From Calditrichota bacterium (GTDB lineage Bacteria > Calditrichota > Calditrichia > RBG-13-44-9 > J042), in assembly GCA_013150955.1 (NCBI GenBank), contig JAADJD010000001.1, forward strand, positions 1 through 10,521: DNA of 10,521 nt, read 5' to 3'. The position numbers were made by a program, and so were the translations under genes. Shown piece after piece: positions 2,072-10,521 of this stretch. The first letter of the stretch is position 1; each line of letters starts with the position of its first letter. A model generated the notes under the pieces. That model saw nothing but the letters and a program-made list of their open reading frames with translations, was not told the DNA's origin and searched no databases.

Positions 2072-2551
2072 TTAAAAAAGTTTGTCGAAAATTTGGTGCA
2101 AAAAAGACTTCGTTTTACTGTCTTCACAAAAAATATATGTTCCTTTAATTCCTCGTGTTAAAAAAATACGATACCGATTAATAAGAAGCTGCATGGCCTT
2201 TTGATAATCCGTTTTATTTCCCTTTTTGGCAGAATAAATTAGCTTTTTCAAACTGGGTTTGCCAATTTCGTCTTCACAATAGTTTCCAATTTGCCAGCAA
2301 TTATCTTTCCAGATGAAATCCCTTCCCCAAATTACACCAACAAAATCACTCTCAAATCCTTGACATCCATAAATTGATGCACACCGTTCCAATCGGTTCG
2401 ATTCCCCATATACCCAAAAGGGCACGTAATCATGTTTTGGATTCATTAACCAATAAATCTTCAATCCAAGATTTTTATATAGCTCAAATCCTGATGGAAG
2501 TGGATATCCAATTCTCAAATTATTTTTTCCGTATGGATTGTTAATCTGACC
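2072..2551 (-). pseudogene. DUF2075 helicase/ATPase, C-terminal part cut off by a frameshift
   Basis: This is the downstream half of the gene starting at 3983. The frame is open from 2551 and encodes GQINNPYGKNNLRIGYPLPS onward. It includes SIYGCQGFESDFVGVIWGRD, the helicase motif V-like segment conserved in DUF2075 proteins, and NRYRIFLTRGIKGTYIFCED, which carries the motif VI-like arginines. It has no proper start: the first possible codon is a TTG at 2518 in the middle of the conserved domain, with no ribosome binding site. It is therefore unlikely to be translated independently. Deleting one copy of the 10-bp duplication at 2544-2563 fuses it in frame to the upstream part, giving a 633-residue protein, close to the usual length for the family. 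The stop is TAA at 2072-2074. Confidence 0.85.
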
Positions 2552-3983
2552 TTATCTGACCTTTCGATTCCGTAAAAGCCGCTATTAAGGCCACTTTAAA
2601 TCCCTCTTCCCTTTTGTATTTTAGTTCACGTATGAGCATTTCAAAATCATTCAAAACTTTAAATTCATATTTATCCCGCCAGGCATCAACAACCCCTGGA
2701 TGTAATGCTTCAGGATTAGTTAACAATTTCTCAACAAACCGGTGGTAGACTTGTCCGCCCTCTACACGATAAAACCCTCTTAGATATTCTTCCTTTATAA
2801 ATTTTCCCTGAATAGAAGCTTCATGAATAAAATTTTGTCTTGTTCCTTCTTCTTCTGAATTTAATATCTGATTCTCATCATAAAAGAACACAGCTACTCG
2901 GGCCCTGCGCATTGCAATGGCAATGTTATGCTTGGACATGCGCTGAGCTTCGTCGTATATCACTAAGTCTAAGTAAGGACCTTTATAGTTTTCTTCGGCT
3001 AGGCCCGTATAACCTCCATTGGGACCCACCGAGTAAAACTTGATGGGATCACTTAATCCCTGTTTAACGGAATTAAAAACTTCCCGGATGGAATTGATCA
3101 ATCGATTGTTACGATAAGTAAGCACAGATTGGTATCCCCGATGCAGCGATGTTAATAACAAATGAATAGCCAGCAGAGTTTTACCAGAACCAGGAGCCCC
3201 CTGCACAAGATAAACGACATCTCTTTTACCCGACTGTACATCTTGAATGATTTTACCTACAACCTGAAGTTGTTCGGCCGATAATCCCCATCCTTTCTCG
3301 GCCAATGCATAATGACTCTGTTTTTGAATATCCGTGAAATGTTTCTTAATAGCTGTAAATAATCTTTTGGATTGTCTGTAATATCCATTAATAAAAGAAA
3401 ATACTATAGACTGGTTAATGCCTTTCACTAGCAGATTTTTTATAAATTGACGAATGTGAAGGACATCGTCACGATAAAATACTGGAATATTAAATAAAAG
3501 CTGAATGTGTTTTTGCTGCGCATTATACATTAAAACAGCTTTATAAATTTCAAAATTTTCTGCTTCCGAATGAGAAAAGCGGATTTTCCCCACATAATTT
3601 TCCAATTGATATTCCGGGTGGACTGTTTTACCTAGATTACATTCAACGATAGTTTCTGAATCTTTTTGTTCTGCTCTTGTCCAACCTTTAAATTCAAACA
3701 CGATAAGGGCCGGTTTTTGATGAAAATTCATCCCAAATAAAATACAATCAATGCGTTCATTACTAAACGGCAATCGATATTCAAATGCAATAAAGAGAGG
3801 ATAAAAGTGAGGATCGTTCATTACCTTCTTTAAGAAATTAACCGTGGATAACCAAGAGGAAACTTGCTCGATTCCCGGATTTTCTCCAAAAATAGAAATA
3901 AAATTTCTCTGGAATTCTTGCAAAATCTGCTGTGAATCCTGAAAAACAAACTCCTTGACGGAACTGAGATATACACAATTCAC
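2541..3983 (-). pseudogene. DUF2075 (Schlafen group-3-like) helicase with N-terminal PD-(D/E)XK-like nuclease domain, frameshifted
   Basis: Numbered from the GTG at 3983. The N-terminal region carries a nuclease-like signature: E68 in FEYRL, D79 in ERIDCILFG, E97-x-K99 in LIVFEFKGW, and a RecB-like Q126-xxx-Y130 in YQLENYVGKI. Residues from about 235 form a superfamily-1-like P-loop module: Walker A GAPGSGKT (262-269), Walker B with DEAQR (344-348) and motif III YDENQ (368-372). The expected role is ATP-driven nucleic-acid unwinding coupled to cleavage. Proteins of this family often occur near defence genes, so phage defence is plausible but not shown. The frame ends in GQIRSD-stop because of a 10-bp duplication, losing helicase motifs V-VI. 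It stands alone, AT-rich, next to insertion-sequence debris, which suggests transfer. It could still make a truncated product. Confidence 0.85.
2544..2563 (-). repeat. Perfect 10-bp tandem duplication that breaks the DUF2075 gene
   Basis: On the coding strand AAGGTCAGAT occurs twice back to back. With both copies the frame reads SKGQIRSD-stop. With one copy it reads SKGQINNPYGKNNLRIGYPL and continues to the natural end. The duplication is thus the exact cause of the +10 frameshift. Replication slippage could create it and could also revert it. Confidence 0.9.
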
Positions 3984-3991
3984 ATTCAACG

Positions 3992-3997: not shown

Positions 3998-4131
3998 AGG
4001 TTTTTGACTAAAGTTAATAATTAATGAATTAAAAAAGAATTTTTCTAACATTAAAAATCTTTAATAAGTCATCTAAATTATTAGAACTCCCGATTGGAAC
4101 CGAAAATTTATACAAGTTTTTACGAAACCTG
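3998..4131. other. AT-rich leader region upstream of the DUF2075 gene, no gene seen
   Basis: This stretch is very AT-rich and presumably carries the promoter of the minus-strand DUF2075 gene. Several -10-like TA-rich hexamers exist, but no -35/-10 pair stands out, so I do not place a promoter. Confidence 0.3.
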
Positions 4132-4343
4132 GATTATACATTAGACCGCGAATGTCACGAAAGAACACGAATATCAATAATCCTAAATAATGCGTTAAAC
4201 CACGAATCACGCGAATAAATTCGAATAATATCAATAAAATACCGAGTCTATCCGGGTAAACATTTTCATCCACATAGAATCAAGTGCATTTTGTTATTTT
4301 TATTGGTGTTAATTTGTGTAATTCGTGGTTCTAATGCATAATC
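4132..4343 (+). repeat. Inverted-repeat element copy A (4185-4343) plus a half-copy (4132-4181)
   Basis: The left arm is aaataatgcgttaaaccacg-aatcacgcgaat. The right arm is aattTGTGTaattcgtggtt-ctaatgcataatct, roughly its reverse complement. The middle carries the family core cattttcatcca..atagaatc and ttattttt. A degenerate left-arm half (gattatacattagaccgcg-aatgtcacg) precedes it. It has the same orientation as copies D and E. It lies between the DUF2075 gene and the lipoprotein gene. Short open frames here (such as 4073-4273, minus) are translations of repeat sequence and are not called as genes. Confidence 0.8.
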
Positions 4344-4390
4344 TCGTATAATTTAGCTAAAATAGACTTTTTTCAAGATCGAATTCGCCC

Positions 4391-4412
4391 GGTAGCCGGC
4401 TGGCAATAGCCA
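4391..4412 (-). other. Weak hairpin downstream of the lipoprotein gene
   Basis: A CTGGC/GCCAG stem with a 4-base loop lies about 25 bases after the lipoprotein stop, within a GC-rich patch. There is no good T run after it on the minus strand, so it is at best a poor terminator. Confidence 0.2.
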
Positions 4413-4433
4413 GGATTTGCAACGGACAACTGG

Positions 4434-4757
4434 TTATTTCACCCCCTCCATCTCAAACTCCCGAATCAACAACATCCGCTGGTCATTCTGGGAGATCAGC
4501 TGTGCTTCGATGATGCGAATGGTACGGGTCTGGAGGGACCAGAGTTTCTGGTAATCGGGGGATTGGGGAGAGATCTCCATCGTTTTTCCATCGGCAAATT
4601 CAGCCATCAGCCGGGTGAACGGTTCATTGCCCGCCACGTAGAGTCGGACGGATACATCCCGAATTACCTGCTGGTGGCGACCCGAACAGGCGGTTAATAA
4701 TAAAAGAAAAGCCATGGCCAGCAACACGAACGGCGTATTCCACGAATGATTCACCAT
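4434..4757 (-). CDS. Small lipoprotein of unknown function
   Basis: This 107-aa protein has a textbook type-II signal peptide: a short polar start, a hydrophobic run (FVLLAMAFLLLL, 10-21) and the lipobox L21-T-A-C24. Cysteine 24 would be lipidated after cleavage. Serine at +2 suggests outer-membrane sorting under the E. coli rule. The mature part of about 84 residues alternates short strands and charged stretches (VSVRLYVAGNEPFTRLMAEF, then ADGKTMEISPQSPDY) and looks beta-rich. I do not recognise a family. The ATG has GAGGGG close upstream (3-base gap), and the next codon, GTG, has better spacing (6), so the start could be one codon later. It is flanked on both sides by palindromic repeats, lies about 650 bp from the RND gene on the same strand, and is therefore probably transcribed alone. 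Confidence 0.75.
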   Translation of the reverse strand: MVNHSWNTPFVLLAMAFLLLLTACSGRHQQVIRDVSVRLYVAGNEPFTRLMAEFADGKTMEISPQSPDYQKLWSLQTRTIRIIEAQLISQNDQRMLLIREFEMEGVK

Positions 4758-4816
4758 GATCCCCTCAGCTCAAAATTTCGTTTCATGAAATTTCCCGTGT
4801 TATCCTAAATCGTGTA

Positions 4817-5017
4817 TTCGACCACAAATGCGCACGAATGAACAATAAAAATGAACCCAGATTATGCAATAGCCCACGAATGAAACGAATGAACAGGAAC
4901 AAAATAATAAATCCATTGGATGATATCTGGATGAAAATGTGCTCCGGCGTTTTTTCGCGATTTTGTGGATATTTTTTGGATTCATCCGTGCAATTCGGGG
5001 TTTAATGCATTATTTGG
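4817..5017 (-). repeat. Inverted-repeat element copy B (4857-5017) plus a half-copy (4817-4856)
   Basis: It starts cagattatgcaatagcccac-gaatg and ends ttcatccgtgcaattcgggg-tttaatgcattatttggg. The core is atccattggatgatatctgg-atgaaaatg followed by ttcgcgattttgtggatatt. The core is the reverse complement of copy E (aatatccacaaaatcgc and catccagatatcatccaat), so B is inverted relative to A, D and E. An arm-like half copy (cgaccacaaatgcgcacgaa) precedes it. Open frames such as 4800-4985 (minus) consist of repeat sequence. Confidence 0.8.
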
Positions 5018-5038
5018 GATCAAAATTGGATTAATTTT

Positions 5039-5167
5039 TCAATACCTACCATTGACCCGTTCGATTAAGGTGAATATTCCCGGAACGAAGTCAAACCCCT
5101 GTTGTGCCACTTTTTGTTTCCGCACTTGGAAGTACTGGTTCTGTAGTTGTCCATTTTCATTCTTCAT
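5039..5167 (-). pseudogene. Possible small ORF or gene remnant between two repeat copies
   Basis: A 42-codon frame begins MKNENGQLQNQYFQVRKQKV and ends GIFTLIERVNGRY before a TGA. The residue pattern (QNQYFQVRKQKVAQQGFDF, then VPGIFTLIERVNG) looks like genuine protein and is unlike the repeat-derived translations around it. There is no Shine-Dalgarno site, and the upstream sequence turns directly into a repeat arm. It may be the tail of a gene truncated by repeat insertion, or chance. I recognise no family. Confidence 0.25.
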
Positions 5168-5186
5168 TCGGATTCGTGGTAATTTA

Positions 5187-5355
5187 AACCCAGATTATGC
5201 TTTAAACCACGAATTACACGAATTAACACAAATAAATATAGTAAAATCCATTGGATGAGATCTGGATGAAAATGGGTTTTAGGTTTTTTTCGCGATTTTG
5301 TGGTTATTTTTTGATTTCATTCGCGTGATTCGCGGTTTAACGCATTATTTGGGTT
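5187..5355 (-). repeat. Inverted-repeat element copy C, the best-preserved arms
   Basis: The left arm (aacccagattatgctttaaa-ccacgaattacacgaatt) and the reverse complement of the right arm (aacccaaataatgcgttaaa-ccgcgaatcacgcgaat) match over about 37 positions with about 8 differences. The core is atccattggatgagatctgg-atgaaaatg then ttcgcgattttgtgg, oriented like copy B. It ends about 55 bases from the 3' end of the RND gene. As an RNA it could fold into a long hairpin and might act as a terminator for that gene, since no other terminator is visible. A short extra arm (attcgtggtaattt, 5172-5185) lies beside it. Confidence 0.85.
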
Positions 5356-5409
5356 AAATCATCCACGGTTGAAAACCCATTCCGATATTCACCATCATGC
5401 CCGGCAAAA

Positions 5410-8346
5410 CTACTCTGAAGGAACAACATCGGCCACGTCACCGGGATGTTCACGGGACGTCACCTCTGTGCTGGCCGCCTGCTGCAAAAATTTCGGTTTG
5501 ATCCACAGCAACAGCGCTGGCAGTACGGTCAGCGTGAACAGCGCGCTCACGAAAATGGTCATGGCGGTCAGTCCCCCGAAACGGCGAATGTGTTGTCCGC
5601 CGGCCGCCAGCAGCACCAGAAAGCCCAGTCCCACCGCCAGTGCGTTGATGATGATGGAAATGCCGGTGGTGTTCAGTGTGTGCTGCAGCGCGGTCAGCGC
5701 ATCCCGGCTCTTTTTCATTTCATCCCGCAGCCGCGAGATGAAGTGGATGTCCGTATCGATACCCAGACCGATGGCCACAGAAGCGATCATGGCGGTGAAC
5801 GAATCCAGCCCGATGCCCAGGTAGCCCATCACCGCAAAGTTGATCAGGATGGTGAGCGAGATGGGCACCACCGCCAGCACGCCCCCGGTGAGCGAGCGGA
5901 AAATCAACGCCAGCAGGATGATCACCAGCATCAGGGTGATGGACAGGCTTTCCACCTGCGTTGGCGTGAGTTCTTCTTCCATGCGCTTGAGCACCGGTGC
6001 CAGACCGGATTGCGCCACGCGGACGGTCAGCCTGCGCCATGTCGGCAAGTCGGCTTCTCCCAATGCAGCAGCAATCTGCGGCTCCGGGGCGATGAGCAAC
6101 TCTTCATTGGCCTGCCACAGCGTGCCTTTCAGGTCGCGCCAGAGTTCGGCGTCGCCGAGGCGCTCCCGGGGAATCTGTTGCTGCAACTGCCGCAGCGCCG
6201 GTTGCAACCGCAGTTCCGCCAGTTGATCCCGGAGGACCGCCGTCAGCGAACCGGCCAGCCAGCCGGCATCTTCGCGATCCACTCCGGGCGCCAGCCGCAG
6301 GATGATGCGCTGGATGACGGCCGAGTCTGGTGCCGCTGTCCTGCTCAACTGCTGGCCAATGGCCCGGCTGATCCTCCGGGCCACGGCAACGGGCAGTTCC
6401 ACCTCGGCCTCCGGGCCGGTGAGATAATCCAGCGCCGCATTTGTCAAAACGGTCCCGGTTTCCGGGATGGGCGGTGGGTTCAGCGCCTGATCGACCACTA
6501 CCGCGAGTGCGTTGTCCGGCAACTCCAGCCCGTGACGGCGCAGGTCCAATTTCAGATCCGCAAGCATTTGCTGGTGGCGAATCTGCAGCAAGCGCGACCT
6601 TGCTTCTGGAGATACCTCACTCAGCCGCACCACGGCCAGCGGCTGCTGATAGGGTGCCAGCAACCGATCGATGCTGTCCACCGCCGCCACCAGGAATGCG
6701 GTGTGCCAGGTGTTGAGTTTGGCCTGTAACAGCGCCTCGGTTTCCTGCCGCGAGACGAGCTGCTCCATCATCTCCCGCCCCTCGATGAGAAACCAGAGAT
6801 TGCTTACGCCCTGGCGGTCTTCCGGCACGGTGTAACGGTCGTTCATCACAGCGTTCATTTCTGCCAGCACGCTGGCAATGGACTGCGACTTGCTGACGCC
6901 GGGCACCACTTCCAGCCGGCGTTCGATTTCGTGCATGAGCTTCAGCGTGGCGGGATCGCGCAGGTCGCCGTCCACCAGAATCTGGATGGGCAGGGAGCCA
7001 CCGAATTTTTCCCGCAGCAGCATCTCGGCGTGGAAAGGATCGCTGCCTTTTTGCAGGCACAGCGTCCAGTCCACATCCTTCTGGATGCGCGGCAGTGCCA
7101 CCGCGGAGAGGATCACCATGCCCACGGCGGCGATCAGGATGGCCTTTTTGCGGCGGTGGATGAAACGGCCCAGGGCCTCGCCAAAAGGCGCGATCCTTCG
7201 GTTCTGTTTCTTTGCCGGACCGGGTGTTATGCCGAAGGAAAGCAGCGCCGGCAGTAGCGTCAGTGTGACCACCAACGCGATGACGATGCCCAGTGCCGTG
7301 AGCAGTCCGAATTGCTGAATGACCGCGAAATCGGAAATGGCCAGCGCCGCAAAGCCCACCGTGGTGGTGATGGTGGTCAGGATGATGGGCGTGCCCATTT
7401 CTTTGAACACCATGCGCGTGGCCTCCCGGGCCGGTTCGCCCAGGCGCCGCCGCTCGAAATAACGCTTGAGCAGGTGGATGCCATCCGCGCTGCCCAGGGC
7501 AAGCAAAATCACCGGCGCAATGCCCGTTAACAAGTCCATCTGCAGGCCGGTCATGCCCATGAAGCCCACTACCCAGATCACGCTGATGGCTACCACCAGC
7601 ATGGGGAATACTACCCCGGCCCAGTGGCGGAAGCCCAGATACAGCGTCAGGATCAGGATCAGCACCATCAGCGGCACCAGCACGGTCAGGTTCTCGGTAA
7701 TCAGCAGGGTCATGTTGAAAATCAAAAACGGCATGCCGCCGAAGTAGAGCCGGGTGTTTTCTGGCGCCTGCACCCGTTCCAGCACCTCCTCGGCGGCGGC
7801 TTTCACCTGCAGCGAGGTGGCAAACTGATTAATGGCCCTGGCCGAGCCGCCCTGAAAGCGTAGCACGATGGCCGCCGTGGTGCCGTCTTCGGACACCAGC
7901 CGGCTCACGTAGCGGTCTTTTTGCATCACGTAGTTCTTCAGCACTGCGATGGCCTGCGGGGAATCCAGCGAGCGCCCATCGAACAGTTCCCCGACCTCCA
8001 GGCCCCAGTCGGTCTTGCGGAAATCCACCACGTTGGTCAGGCTGGTCACATAGGCAATACCCTCGACATTTTTGAACGCCTCGGTGAGCTCCTGCAAGAG
8101 CTTCAGGTTTTGCGGCGTGAACACGTCGTCTGCCGACAGCAGTGCCACGCCCACGGAATTGCCACCAAAGATGTCCCCGATGCGATTGTACTGCTGCACC
8201 AGCGGATCGTCCTGCCGTAAATAAGTGGAGAAATCCGCATTCAGTTCCACCCGCATGGCCTGCATTCCGAAAAATGCGGTGATAAGAAGCATGACGCCAA
8301 TGATCATCCAGCGCCAGCGAATAACCCGGTCGGCTAATTTCAGCAT
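5410..8346 (-). CDS. RND-superfamily transporter, HAE3/MMPL type, with an enlarged second periplasmic loop
   Basis: This 978-aa inner-membrane protein is expected to export lipids, hopanoids or amphiphiles using proton flux; the substrate is unknown. It shows the duplicated 1+5 / 1+5 helix plan. TM1 is at about 13-31, periplasmic loop 1 at 32-215, TM2-6 at about 218-371, TM7 at about 400-418, loop 2 at about 420-798 and TM8-12 at about 801-950. TM4 carries GSADGIHLLKRY, and the matching TM10 carries the GLGIDTDIHFISRL motif typical of HAE3/MMPL proteins. Loop 2, about 375 residues, is about twice loop 1; its extra part (about 520-790) is helical and rich in Q, R, E and L. The ATG has GAGGG 5 bases upstream. 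The gene is visibly GC-rich against AT-rich flanks. No TetR regulator, membrane-fusion protein or LolA-like partner is adjacent. Confidence 0.9.
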   Translation of the reverse strand: MLKLADRVIRWRWMIIGVMLLITAFFGMQAMRVELNADFSTYLRQDDPLVQQYNRIGDIFGGNSVGVALLSADDVFTPQNLKLLQELTEAFKNVEGIAYVTSLTNVVDFRKTDWGLEVGELFDGRSLDSPQAIAVLKNYVMQKDRYVSRLVSEDGTTAAIVLRFQGGSARAINQFATSLQVKAAAEEVLERVQAPENTRLYFGGMPFLIFNMTLLITENLTVLVPLMVLILILTLYLGFRHWAGVVFPMLVVAISVIWVVGFMGMTGLQMDLLTGIAPVILLALGSADGIHLLKRYFERRRLGEPAREATRMVFKEMGTPIILTTITTTVGFAALAISDFAVIQQFGLLTALGIVIALVVTLTLLPALLSFGITPGPAKKQNRRIAPFGEALGRFIHRRKKAILIAAVGMVILSAVALPRIQKDVDWTLCLQKGSDPFHAEMLLREKFGGSLPIQILVDGDLRDPATLKLMHEIERRLEVVPGVSKSQSIASVLAEMNAVMNDRYTVPEDRQGVSNLWFLIEGREMMEQLVSRQETEALLQAKLNTWHTAFLVAAVDSIDRLLAPYQQPLAVVRLSEVSPEARSRLLQIRHQQMLADLKLDLRRHGLELPDNALAVVVDQALNPPPIPETGTVLTNAALDYLTGPEAEVELPVAVARRISRAIGQQLSRTAAPDSAVIQRIILRLAPGVDREDAGWLAGSLTAVLRDQLAELRLQPALRQLQQQIPRERLGDAELWRDLKGTLWQANEELLIAPEPQIAAALGEADLPTWRRLTVRVAQSGLAPVLKRMEEELTPTQVESLSITLMLVIILLALIFRSLTGGVLAVVPISLTILINFAVMGYLGIGLDSFTAMIASVAIGLGIDTDIHFISRLRDEMKKSRDALTALQHTLNTTGISIIINALAVGLGFLVLLAAGGQHIRRFGGLTAMTIFVSALFTLTVLPALLLWIKPKFLQQAASTEVTSREHPGDVADVVPSE

Positions 8347-8364
8347 GGTAACCCTCGCTGTTTT

Positions 8365-8393
8365 TTTATAACACGATTCAACATGTGTGCCAG
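8365..8393 (-). promoter_or_regulatory. Candidate sigma-70-type promoter for the RND gene
   Basis: On the minus strand CTGGCA (-35 like, 4 of 6 matches to TTGACA) is followed after exactly 17 bases by TATAAA (-10 like, 5 of 6). Transcription would start only about 12 bases before the ATG, leaving a very short leader that still contains the GAGGG site. This is a consensus match by eye only. Confidence 0.3.
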
Positions 8394-8604
8394 GAAAAAG
8401 CGGGCTCGATTACCTATCCTGAGCAAGCATTAGAAAAACAGGCGATTGGTACAGGTTTTAGTGACGACGGGCATAAGTGTGACATCTTCTTTTGAAAACT
8501 ATTCTCAAATTAACTGTAGAATATTCCACTAAAATAATCTGCTTTGTTCGTATACGATGCACCTTTTCTTCTGGCGCTCAATAGTCAAAGCATGAATTTT
8601 AATC
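8394..8604. other. Divergent intergenic stretch upstream of the RND gene, no gene seen
   Basis: No start-plus-ribosome-site combination of useful length is seen on either strand. A short plus-strand frame ending at about 8504 (peptide ITYPEQALEKQAIGTGFSDD) looks protein-like but lacks an ATG and is too short to call. The region probably holds upstream control sequence only. Confidence 0.3.
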
Positions 8605-8817
8605 TAAATAATATGTTAAACCACGAATCACGCGAATGAATTCGAATAAAATCTACAAAATAGCGAATATATCTAAAAAAAACATTTTCATTCAGATAGA
8701 ATCCAATGCATTTTATTATTTTTATTGGTATTAATTCGTGTAATTCGCGGTTCTAATGCATAATCTGGGTTTATTTTGTGTTAATTCGTGTCATTCGTAG
8801 GCGATTGCTTAATCTGG
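8605..8817 (+). repeat. Inverted-repeat element copy D (8605-8768) plus a half-copy (8769-8817)
   Basis: The left arm is taaataatatgttaaaccac-gaatcacgcgaat. The right arm is attaattcgtgtaattcgcg-gttctaatgcataatctgg. The core contains atctacaaaatagcgaat, cattttcattcagatagaat and ttttattatttttattgg. It is closely similar to copy A throughout and has the same orientation. An extra arm (tgtgttaattcgtgtcattc) follows. It lies in the divergent region between the RND gene and nhaA. Confidence 0.85.
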
Positions 8818-9071
8818 AATTATCAGACTCTTTCCATGCGGTAAAGGGGGAAATGGATCAGCAAGGTGGGATTTACAAGATGATCCTTAGCTTGAGGGCA
8901 ATAACGCTTCATTATCATTGATGGGGTTTGCAATGGAGTGGATCAAAAGAATTTTACCCTTGATTTCAAATCCCCGGCAATTTATCATTGGCATCACGGA
9001 TCACCCACTTTGGTGGCCTCCGTGGTATAAACATCGAAAGCGAACAGGTAAATGCATAGAGGGAATTCTAT
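8818..9071 (+). other. nhaA leader region, no gene called
   Basis: About 250 bases separate repeat D from the nhaA start. A plus-strand frame from 8918 overlaps the nhaA start in another frame, has no good ribosome site and shows no recognisable domain, so I leave it out. A TAGAGGG ribosome site ends 8 bases before the nhaA ATG. The length leaves room for a promoter and a regulatory leader (sodium- and pH-linked control is common for nhaA), but I see no defined structure. Confidence 0.3.
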
Positions 9072-10247
9072 ATGAAAGCCATGATCGAGGAGTTTATCCA
9101 GAAGGAGTCGTCGGGTGGGATTGTGTTGATGTTTACTACTGTTCTGGCCATGCTGGTCAGCAACACCGCTCTGGCGCCCTGGTACCAGTCCATTTTGAAT
9201 TTGCCCATGGAGGTGCGGGTTGGCCCGCTTCATCTGGATAAAAATTTGTATTTGTGGGTCAACGATGGGCTGATGGCCATTTTCTTTTTACTGGTGGGGC
9301 TGGAAGTCAAGCGGGAAATTCTGGAGGGACATCTCTCCACCGTTCAGCAGGCCACGCTTCCGGTCATTGCCGCAGTGGGGGGCATGCTGGTACCGGCACT
9401 GGTGTATTTATCGTTTAACATCGATGATCCGGTGGCCCGCAACGGTTGGGCCATTCCCGCTGCAACCGATATTGCCTTTGCCCTGGGCGTGTTGTCTCTG
9501 TTGGGCAAGCGGGTTCCTGTTTCCCTGAAGATATTTCTCATGGCCCTGGCGATTATTGATGACCTGGGAGCCATTGTGATCATCGCCGTCTTCTATACGG
9601 CGAAGTTGTCCATGACCTCGTTACTGGTGGCAGGGATTGCCCTGCTGGCTCTGATTACACTGAATTATTTTGGCGTTGTTCGACGCGCCGCCTATTTTAC
9701 CATTGGAATCGTTTTGTGGGTCAGTGTGTTGAAATCCGGTGTGCACGCGACACTGGCGGGTGTGGCGCTGGCCTTTACCATTCCTTTAACTGGCCGCGAT
9801 GAAGAGGGGCGTTCCATATCGCCTTTAAAAGAACTGGAACACGACCTGCACTACTGGGTAGCCTTTTTTGTTCTGCCCATCTTTGCCTTCGTTAATGCCG
9901 GGGTCGATATCGGGGACATCTCCGTGGCGCAAATGACCGGTCCGGTGCCGATGGGCATTTTACTGGGATTGTTTTTGGGCAAGCAGCTGGGGGTTTTCTG
10001 GTTTAGCTGGGCGGCCATTAAACTGGGCCTGGCCCGTTTGCCCGAAAGCAGCAACTGGTGGCAATTATACGGGGTTTCGGTGCTTACGGGCATTGGGTTT
10101 ACCATGAGCCTGTTCATCCTGACCCTTGCATTCGAAGATCCCGCCATGTATCAATACACCGATAAGCTGGCCATTTTACTGGGCTCGCTATTATCGGGAG
10201 TTGTGGGATACAGCATGCTTCGTTTGCGCGCCTCTGCTGTAAACTGA
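9072..10247 (+). CDS. nhaA: NhaA-type Na+/H+ antiporter
   Basis: This 391-aa inner-membrane antiporter expels Na+ (and Li+) in exchange for protons and supports pH and salt homeostasis. E. coli NhaA is 388 residues, and the key residues fall at the same numbers. These are D65 and E78 in NDGLMAIFFLLVGLEVKRE, T132-D133 of the crossed unwound helix in IPAATDIAFALGVL, the ion-binding pair D163-D164 in ALAIIDDLGAIVII, and the pH-sensing H225 in SGVHATLAG. The lysine equivalent to K300 is K304 in FLGKQLG, and GIGFTMSLFI ends the conserved core. It is complete, with no frameshift. The ATG has GAGGG 8 bases upstream. It stands alone between repeat copies D and E, with no nhaR regulator in the window. 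Confidence 0.96.
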   Translation: MKAMIEEFIQKESSGGIVLMFTTVLAMLVSNTALAPWYQSILNLPMEVRVGPLHLDKNLYLWVNDGLMAIFFLLVGLEVKREILEGHLSTVQQATLPVIAAVGGMLVPALVYLSFNIDDPVARNGWAIPAATDIAFALGVLSLLGKRVPVSLKIFLMALAIIDDLGAIVIIAVFYTAKLSMTSLLVAGIALLALITLNYFGVVRRAAYFTIGIVLWVSVLKSGVHATLAGVALAFTIPLTGRDEEGRSISPLKELEHDLHYWVAFFVLPIFAFVNAGVDIGDISVAQMTGPVPMGILLGLFLGKQLGVFWFSWAAIKLGLARLPESSNWWQLYGVSVLTGIGFTMSLFILTLAFEDPAMYQYTDKLAILLGSLLSGVVGYSMLRLRASAVN

Positions 10248-10273
10248 AAATGAGGAATCGCTGTCGCCCTGCA

Positions 10274-10303
10274 GGTCCGGGTGGATGAGATTCCATCCGG
10301 ACC
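10274..10303 (+). terminator. Hairpin after nhaA, probable terminator
   Basis: An 11-bp stem (GGTCCGGGTGG with CCATCCGGACC, one G-T wobble) encloses an 8-base loop, starting 26 bases after the nhaA stop. The strong GC stem is followed by ggggttatt rather than a clean T run. It may stop transcription inefficiently or mainly protect the 3' end of the mRNA. Confidence 0.55.
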
Positions 10304-10317
10304 GGGGTTATTAATCC

Positions 10318-10475
10318 TCAATAATGTGCTAAACCGCGAATCATGCGAACGAAACCAAAAAATATCCACAAAATCGCAAATAATCCCTGGAACACATTTT
10401 CATCCAGATATCATCCAATAGTTTTATTATTTTAACCCAGATTACGCAATAGAACGAAATTTCTAATGCGTAGCA
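10318..10475 (+). repeat. Inverted-repeat element copy E (right arm degenerate)
   Basis: The left arm aataatgtgctaaaccgcga-atcatgcgaac and the core aatatccacaaaatcgcaaa, then catccagatatcatccaata and gttttattatttt, match copies A and D in order and B and C in reverse complement. The right arm is altered: aacccagattacgcaataga-acgaaatttctaatgcg. The last bases of the window (10476-10521) are AT-rich and carry nothing I can name. Confidence 0.75.
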
Positions 10476-10521
10476 ATAGAAAATAATTATTTTAACCTAT
10501 TGATTATTTGGGAATTGCAAT

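Follow-up and report, generated by a model that had tools for sequence, protein, structure and literature searches.

The short inverted repeats in this stretch of DNA belong to a MITE family that was in all likelihood (we put the probability at about 0.87) mobilised in trans by a transposase of the IS1380 family, whose own element matches the MITE in its ends and in its target. The window, by which we mean the whole 10,521-nucleotide stretch analysed, corresponds to contig C21 in a genome assembly of 66 contigs and 4.07 Mb, and the closest protein relatives of its genes come from MAGs of deep-sea vents, some bearing the label KSB1 or Calditrichota. In this genome one MITE family makes up about 3% of the sequence, a candidate driver is identifiable and the genome of a sibling is nearly empty of the element; it is a usable natural case for following the explosion of a non-autonomous transposon in a bacterial host, the sites at which its insertion is tolerated and the growth of complex repeats through nesting.

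Copies and fragments in the window

The window holds five copies of one intergenic element of about 170 bp, one of them cut short, together with arm fragments. An earlier, sequence-only reading had recognised a family of five elements of roughly 160 bp, and the copies do lie at the places and in the relative orientations that it gave; the end point that it set, 10475, falls inside an IS1380-family IS. The features are the following:

4126-4181, plus strand: left-arm fragment of an older copy that was hit by the insertion of A
4177-4352, minus strand: MITE copy A, with a perfect target-site duplication (TSD) ATAAT/ATAAT; the element proper is 4182-4347
4801-4855, plus strand: diverged left-arm fragment abutting B, from an older copy interrupted by B
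4851-5023, plus strand: MITE copy B, TSD ATGAA/ATCAA with one mismatch
5184-5358, plus strand: MITE copy C, perfect TSD TTAAA/TTAAA
8598-8774, minus strand: MITE copy D, TSD TTTAA/TTTAT with one mismatch
8770-8821, minus strand: next to D, a piece of arm (model 1-49) left from an older copy
10311-10430, minus strand: MITE copy E, which the IS1380 insertion truncates at model position ~49
10431-10435, no strand: target site TTTAA of the IS1380 insertion
10436-10521, plus strand: left end of the IS1380-family IS, CCCAGATTACGCAATAG...; the contig ends within the IS

Seven matches to the 17-bp end CCCAGATTATGCATTAG with at most three mismatches occur in the window, against 0.03 in shuffled sequence. 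Pieces of arm flank A, B and D because these three copies inserted into older ones, and copy E ends at 10430 because the IS, which starts at 10436, inserted there. As the end of the window lies inside this IS copy, the window stops within the very element that interrupts E; the 86 bp of it that are present are 100% identical to the IS on contigs C18, C13 and C27 of the same genome (G000).

Two other features of the window concern different sequences. An 81-bp direct repeat (89% identical, 258-338 and 1710-1790) flanks a Mutator-type (IS256-like) transposase gene at 323-1525, and a further copy of it on C18 (L108, ~1411-1460) abuts an IS1380 insertion at TTTAT; since it is also found on that contig, the 81-bp sequence is a further dispersed repeat. 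On the minus strand at 2072-3989 there is a Schlafen group 3 helicase-domain gene (PF09848), apparently split in two frames near 2518-2541 with a short tandem duplication, ATCTGACCTT, beside the split, and probably a pseudogene.

Ends, target site and a likely IS1380-family partner

Copies of the family begin with CCCAGATTATGC... and finish in ...GCATTATTTGGG, with inverted terminal repeats (TIR) of 17 bp. When copies were aligned with their flanks, the sequence was random beyond a 5-bp WTNAW motif found at both sides, and column conservation fell to background outside the TSD, with boundaries that are sharp and common to the copies. Because conservation stops outside the duplicated 5-mer, the element proper is the sequence from CCCAGATTATGC to GCATTATTTGGG, and it duplicates 5 bp. 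The two 5-mers were identical in 74 of 204 copies, compared with 16.8 +/- 3.9 for mismatched pairs, and had at most one mismatch in 119 of them, many old copies having imperfect TSDs; over the 204 copies the agreement stops short of a sixth base. A typical element measures 165 bp between the duplications and 175 bp with both. The length had been described as fixed, which is nearly right, as full copies range from about 139 to 192 bp, both duplications included. The earlier identification of these small intergenic repeats as MITEs is borne out by the inverted terminal repeats at sharp, rather than continuously varying, boundaries, by the constant 5-bp TSD, for which a search had been proposed, and by the lack of coding capacity.

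The MITE ends resemble ISEcp1-type ends, beginning CC(C/T)AGATT, which we take to indicate the IS1380 family. When the genome was searched with the NF033539 profile (cut-off 180 bits), a single locus passed, with 218 bits; it lies at the end of contig C18, and its transposase was separately confirmed as IS1380 family; no second IS1380-family locus in the genome exceeded the cut-off. Upstream of this transposase the sequence reads CCCAGATTACGCAATAGAACG..., and the left ends of the IS, found on C13, C18, C21 (the window) and C27, are mutually identical, preceded by TTTAA at C13, C27 and in the window and, at C18, by a partly duplicated end. Right ends on C12, C14, C19, C35 and C44 read ...CTCTAATGCGTAATCTGGG and are followed by TTTAA-like sites. 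The IS terminates in CCCAGATTACGCAWTAG and is bordered mostly by TTTAA or similar WTNAW sites; contigs end in it, which explains why some of the MAG contigs break.

Counted from the exact cut point, 16 of 17 bases agree between the ends of the IS and of the MITE, every MITE subfamily having ATTATGC where the IS has ATTACGC, and both use the same 5-bp target. A likely autonomous partner with matching ends, which had been expected elsewhere unless another amplification mechanism was at work, has thereby been found, with its sole assembled transposase copy, that on C18, in two frames; the break, near C18:1057, may be decay or a collapsed repeat. No similarity between MITE and IS is visible beyond the TIR, which gives no support to an interior derived from the IS by deletion. 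Because the similarity stops after the TIR, our claim is that the family was mobilised by IS1380, not that it was deleted from it.

Since the MITEs share their ends and target sites with a resident IS1380-type transposon, they were very probably spread by its transposase. The enzyme would act in trans on the CCCAGATTATGCATTAG ends of the ~165-bp MITE, and each insertion would duplicate 5 bp of an AT-rich WTNAW target. Several subfamily bursts would then have raised the family to its present size, purifying selection would have kept copies in intergenic DNA only, and repeated insertion into the element's own AT-rich arms would have given rise to nested clusters and arm fragments.

The sampled copies fall into five or more subfamilies, with 9-45 copies in each and a divergence of about 8-9% from the consensus of the subfamily (median 8.6%), and nearly identical pairs are absent, the nearest-neighbour minimum being 2.3%. 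The burst is therefore not recent, and it probably took place over several rounds. Copies of the IS have identical ends whereas the MITE copies have diverged by 8-9%, so the present IS may have arrived later than the driver or descend from it, and the MITEs may have been driven directly by an ancestor or a relative of the IS that we see today. The same difference in age, along with the ATTATGC found in all MITE subfamilies in place of the ATTACGC of the IS, would also fit if a different transposase, for example from a lost IS1380 relative or another enzyme of the IS4 superfamily, had spread the MITEs and the resident IS1380 shared its end specificity by descent only. We regard this as unlikely, though as the strongest of the competing explanations, given the agreement of the ends from the exact cut point, the common 5-bp target and a genome with no other IS1380-family locus over the cut-off.

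Copy number, placement and function

The census draws on stretches that add up to 1.15 Mb and on counts of patterns over the whole genome. An unbiased sample of 400 kb, from three long contigs chosen regardless of matches, held 49 full places and 99 in total, which occupy 3.0% of its bases and extrapolate genome-wide to about 500 full and about 1,000 total places (about 500 of them broken). The left TIR with at most two mismatches occurs 711 times in the 4.07 Mb (reversed control, 7), and a search with copy C alone gave at least 72 matches in the genome. The family thus recurs hundreds of times outside this locus, and its abundance is unusual for a bacterium.

Among the 205 full copies in the 1.15 Mb only one lies deep inside an ORF, as against about 60% if placed randomly, in agreement with the intergenic-only location first proposed. 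Copies are depleted between divergent genes (20, about 53 expected) and in excess between convergent genes (63, about 40 expected), the expectations being arithmetic from base-pair totals. This pattern fits a protection of promoter regions, and we infer that selection is the cause of the intergenic bias.

The strictly intergenic location and the convergent excess, together with a consensus that folds into a long hairpin, could also be read as the mark of functional regulatory or RNA elements, such as terminators, sRNAs or attenuators, kept by selection. We consider this highly improbable. The hairpin is there because any long inverted repeat must form one, the divergent-region depletion fits the purging of harmful insertions, co-directional gaps hold only 22 same-sense against 38 opposite-sense copies, and the element is nearly absent from the sibling genome. 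It had been proposed that a conserved core points to a bound protein or a functional RNA fold, and this part of the sequence-only reading is not supported: compensatory changes were found in none of 12 pairs of the consensus fold (40 aligned copies), the core diverges more from the subfamily consensus (8.4%) than the arms do (5.7-6.9%; the TCTGGATGAAAATG part, 6.4%), and Rfam returned nothing at the gathering threshold, its best match, MIR9486, being at chance level. Folding, covariation and segment-wise conservation therefore give no support to a functional RNA or protein-binding core.

Insertions of a full copy into another copy number about 22 in 754 kb, and in them the older element continues beyond a duplicated 5-mer, in most cases ATAAA or TTTAT. 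As the state of the target prior to insertion can be read from the interrupted copy, nested copies are internal empty sites, so that the empty sites for which the earlier reading had suggested looking do exist, each marked by its TSD. A spread as REP/BIME or ERIC-like palindromes, by RAYT (TnpA-REP) or other means and without target duplication, would suit palindromic, intergenic sequences in hundreds of copies and mosaic clusters, but is the least credible explanation of all, contradicted by the real TIR and 5-bp TSD, by nested insertions that account for the clusters and by ends that match a resident IS.

In 656 kb of sequence from a sibling of the same genus (G001), 34 places have both flanks syntenic, and none of the four syntenic intervals aligned holds the element; base-exact empty-site joints were not obtained in this genome because the intergenic flanks are too diverged. 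The only element in the 656 kb, and the single MITE copy of this sibling, is at C15:2437-2751 (L144), with TSD ATAAT. In its core sits an insert of ~140 bp that belongs to a different type of repeat (ACCACAAAGACTC...). The G001 MITE is located in a region that is rearranged and that L017 shares, but the comparison did not establish orthology. IS1380 gave no match in G001, and the other two genomes of the taxonomic family gave no match to the MITE or to IS1380, except one TIR-like site in G002. The plasmid collection held no match to the MITE, and the viral contigs no TIR-plus-arm match, five contigs having the arm motif only.

A shared arm module and known systems

The arms of the MITE consist of three ~9-10-bp repeats, CCACGAATT/NCACGAATT/NACACGAAT, which usually face a similar inverted array, and which have relatives of the type CCACTGATT/TCCACAGAAA/GACACGGATT. 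The arm motif CCACGAATTNCACGAATTNACACGAAT recurs in class-mates, in one-repeat length variants, inside MITEs with other ends and a TSD of 6-7 bp. The pattern CACGAATKNCACGAATKNACACGAAT was found in 9 of 385 genomes, 7 of which belong to the 40 genomes from this phylum, and the control gave no match. In the class-mates G017 and G027 the arm pattern sits just inside a different MITE of ~101-131 bp with ends GAGTYCASTMTAAAAA (65-120 end matches per genome) and AT-rich TSDs of 6-7 bp, for example ATTTAT, ATGTAT and ATGACAT. Copies of 101, 112 and 121 bp of this MITE differ by one repeat unit, and the window's family likewise gains or loses one ~9-bp unit; one element with GAGTYCASTMTAAAAA-type ends is without the arm module. 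Examples from G017 and G027 of GAGTYCASTMTAAAAA-end MITEs with the CCACGAATTNCACGAATNNACACGAAT arm of the window's family, present in tens of copies per genome, are L247, L256, L262, L265, L270, L284, L290 and L292. Hairpins or arrays of similar ~9-10-bp triplets without TIR were also seen (L146, L148, L151, L157, L160, L249, L254, L263, L265), of the types CCACGAATT.., CCACAGAGA.., CCACTGATT.. and CCGCAAAGA.., scattered in intergenic DNA of several genomes, other phyla included; the literature searched by motif held nothing on them.

We suggest, tentatively, that the arms could be a separate dispersed module outside the transposon proper, picked up independently by unrelated MITE families, here one with IS1380 ends and in G017 and G027 one with GAGTYCASTMTAAAAA ends. 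The module may go back to a common ancestor, may have been captured independently or may have some role in itself, and it may spread by a mechanism of its own or be favoured by a host factor. Its presence in MITEs with different ends raises a testable question, namely what makes these sequences recurrent in bacterial genomes.

In the literature searched we found no MITE tied to an IS1380 element, and nothing on the repeat motif when searched as a sequence string. With the IS1380 family (ISEcp1, IS1380) the MITE shares the 5-bp AT-rich target duplication, seen too in the relative G017, which has an intact IS1380 with CCTAAATTTCTAA ends (also given as CCTAAATTT) and a TTTAA duplication at one copy; the partner transposase is over the curated IS1380 cut-off, whereas the MITE itself is without a transposase and has an interior unrelated to the present IS. 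Prokaryotic MITEs such as Correia, Chunjie, SM1-SM4 and MITEAba12 are likewise short, intergenic and non-coding, with TIR, TSD and an autonomous partner elsewhere (PMC10969869). Reported copy numbers are 25-44 for SM elements and >120 for Correia, and in Photorhabdus ERIC reaches 711 (PMC10969869); compared with most prokaryotic MITEs, the family described here has a far higher copy number and nests extensively in itself. The ERIC sequences of enterobacteria are similarly palindromic, intergenic, of like size and present in hundreds of copies, but differ from our MITE, for which both a TSD and a matching IS were found.
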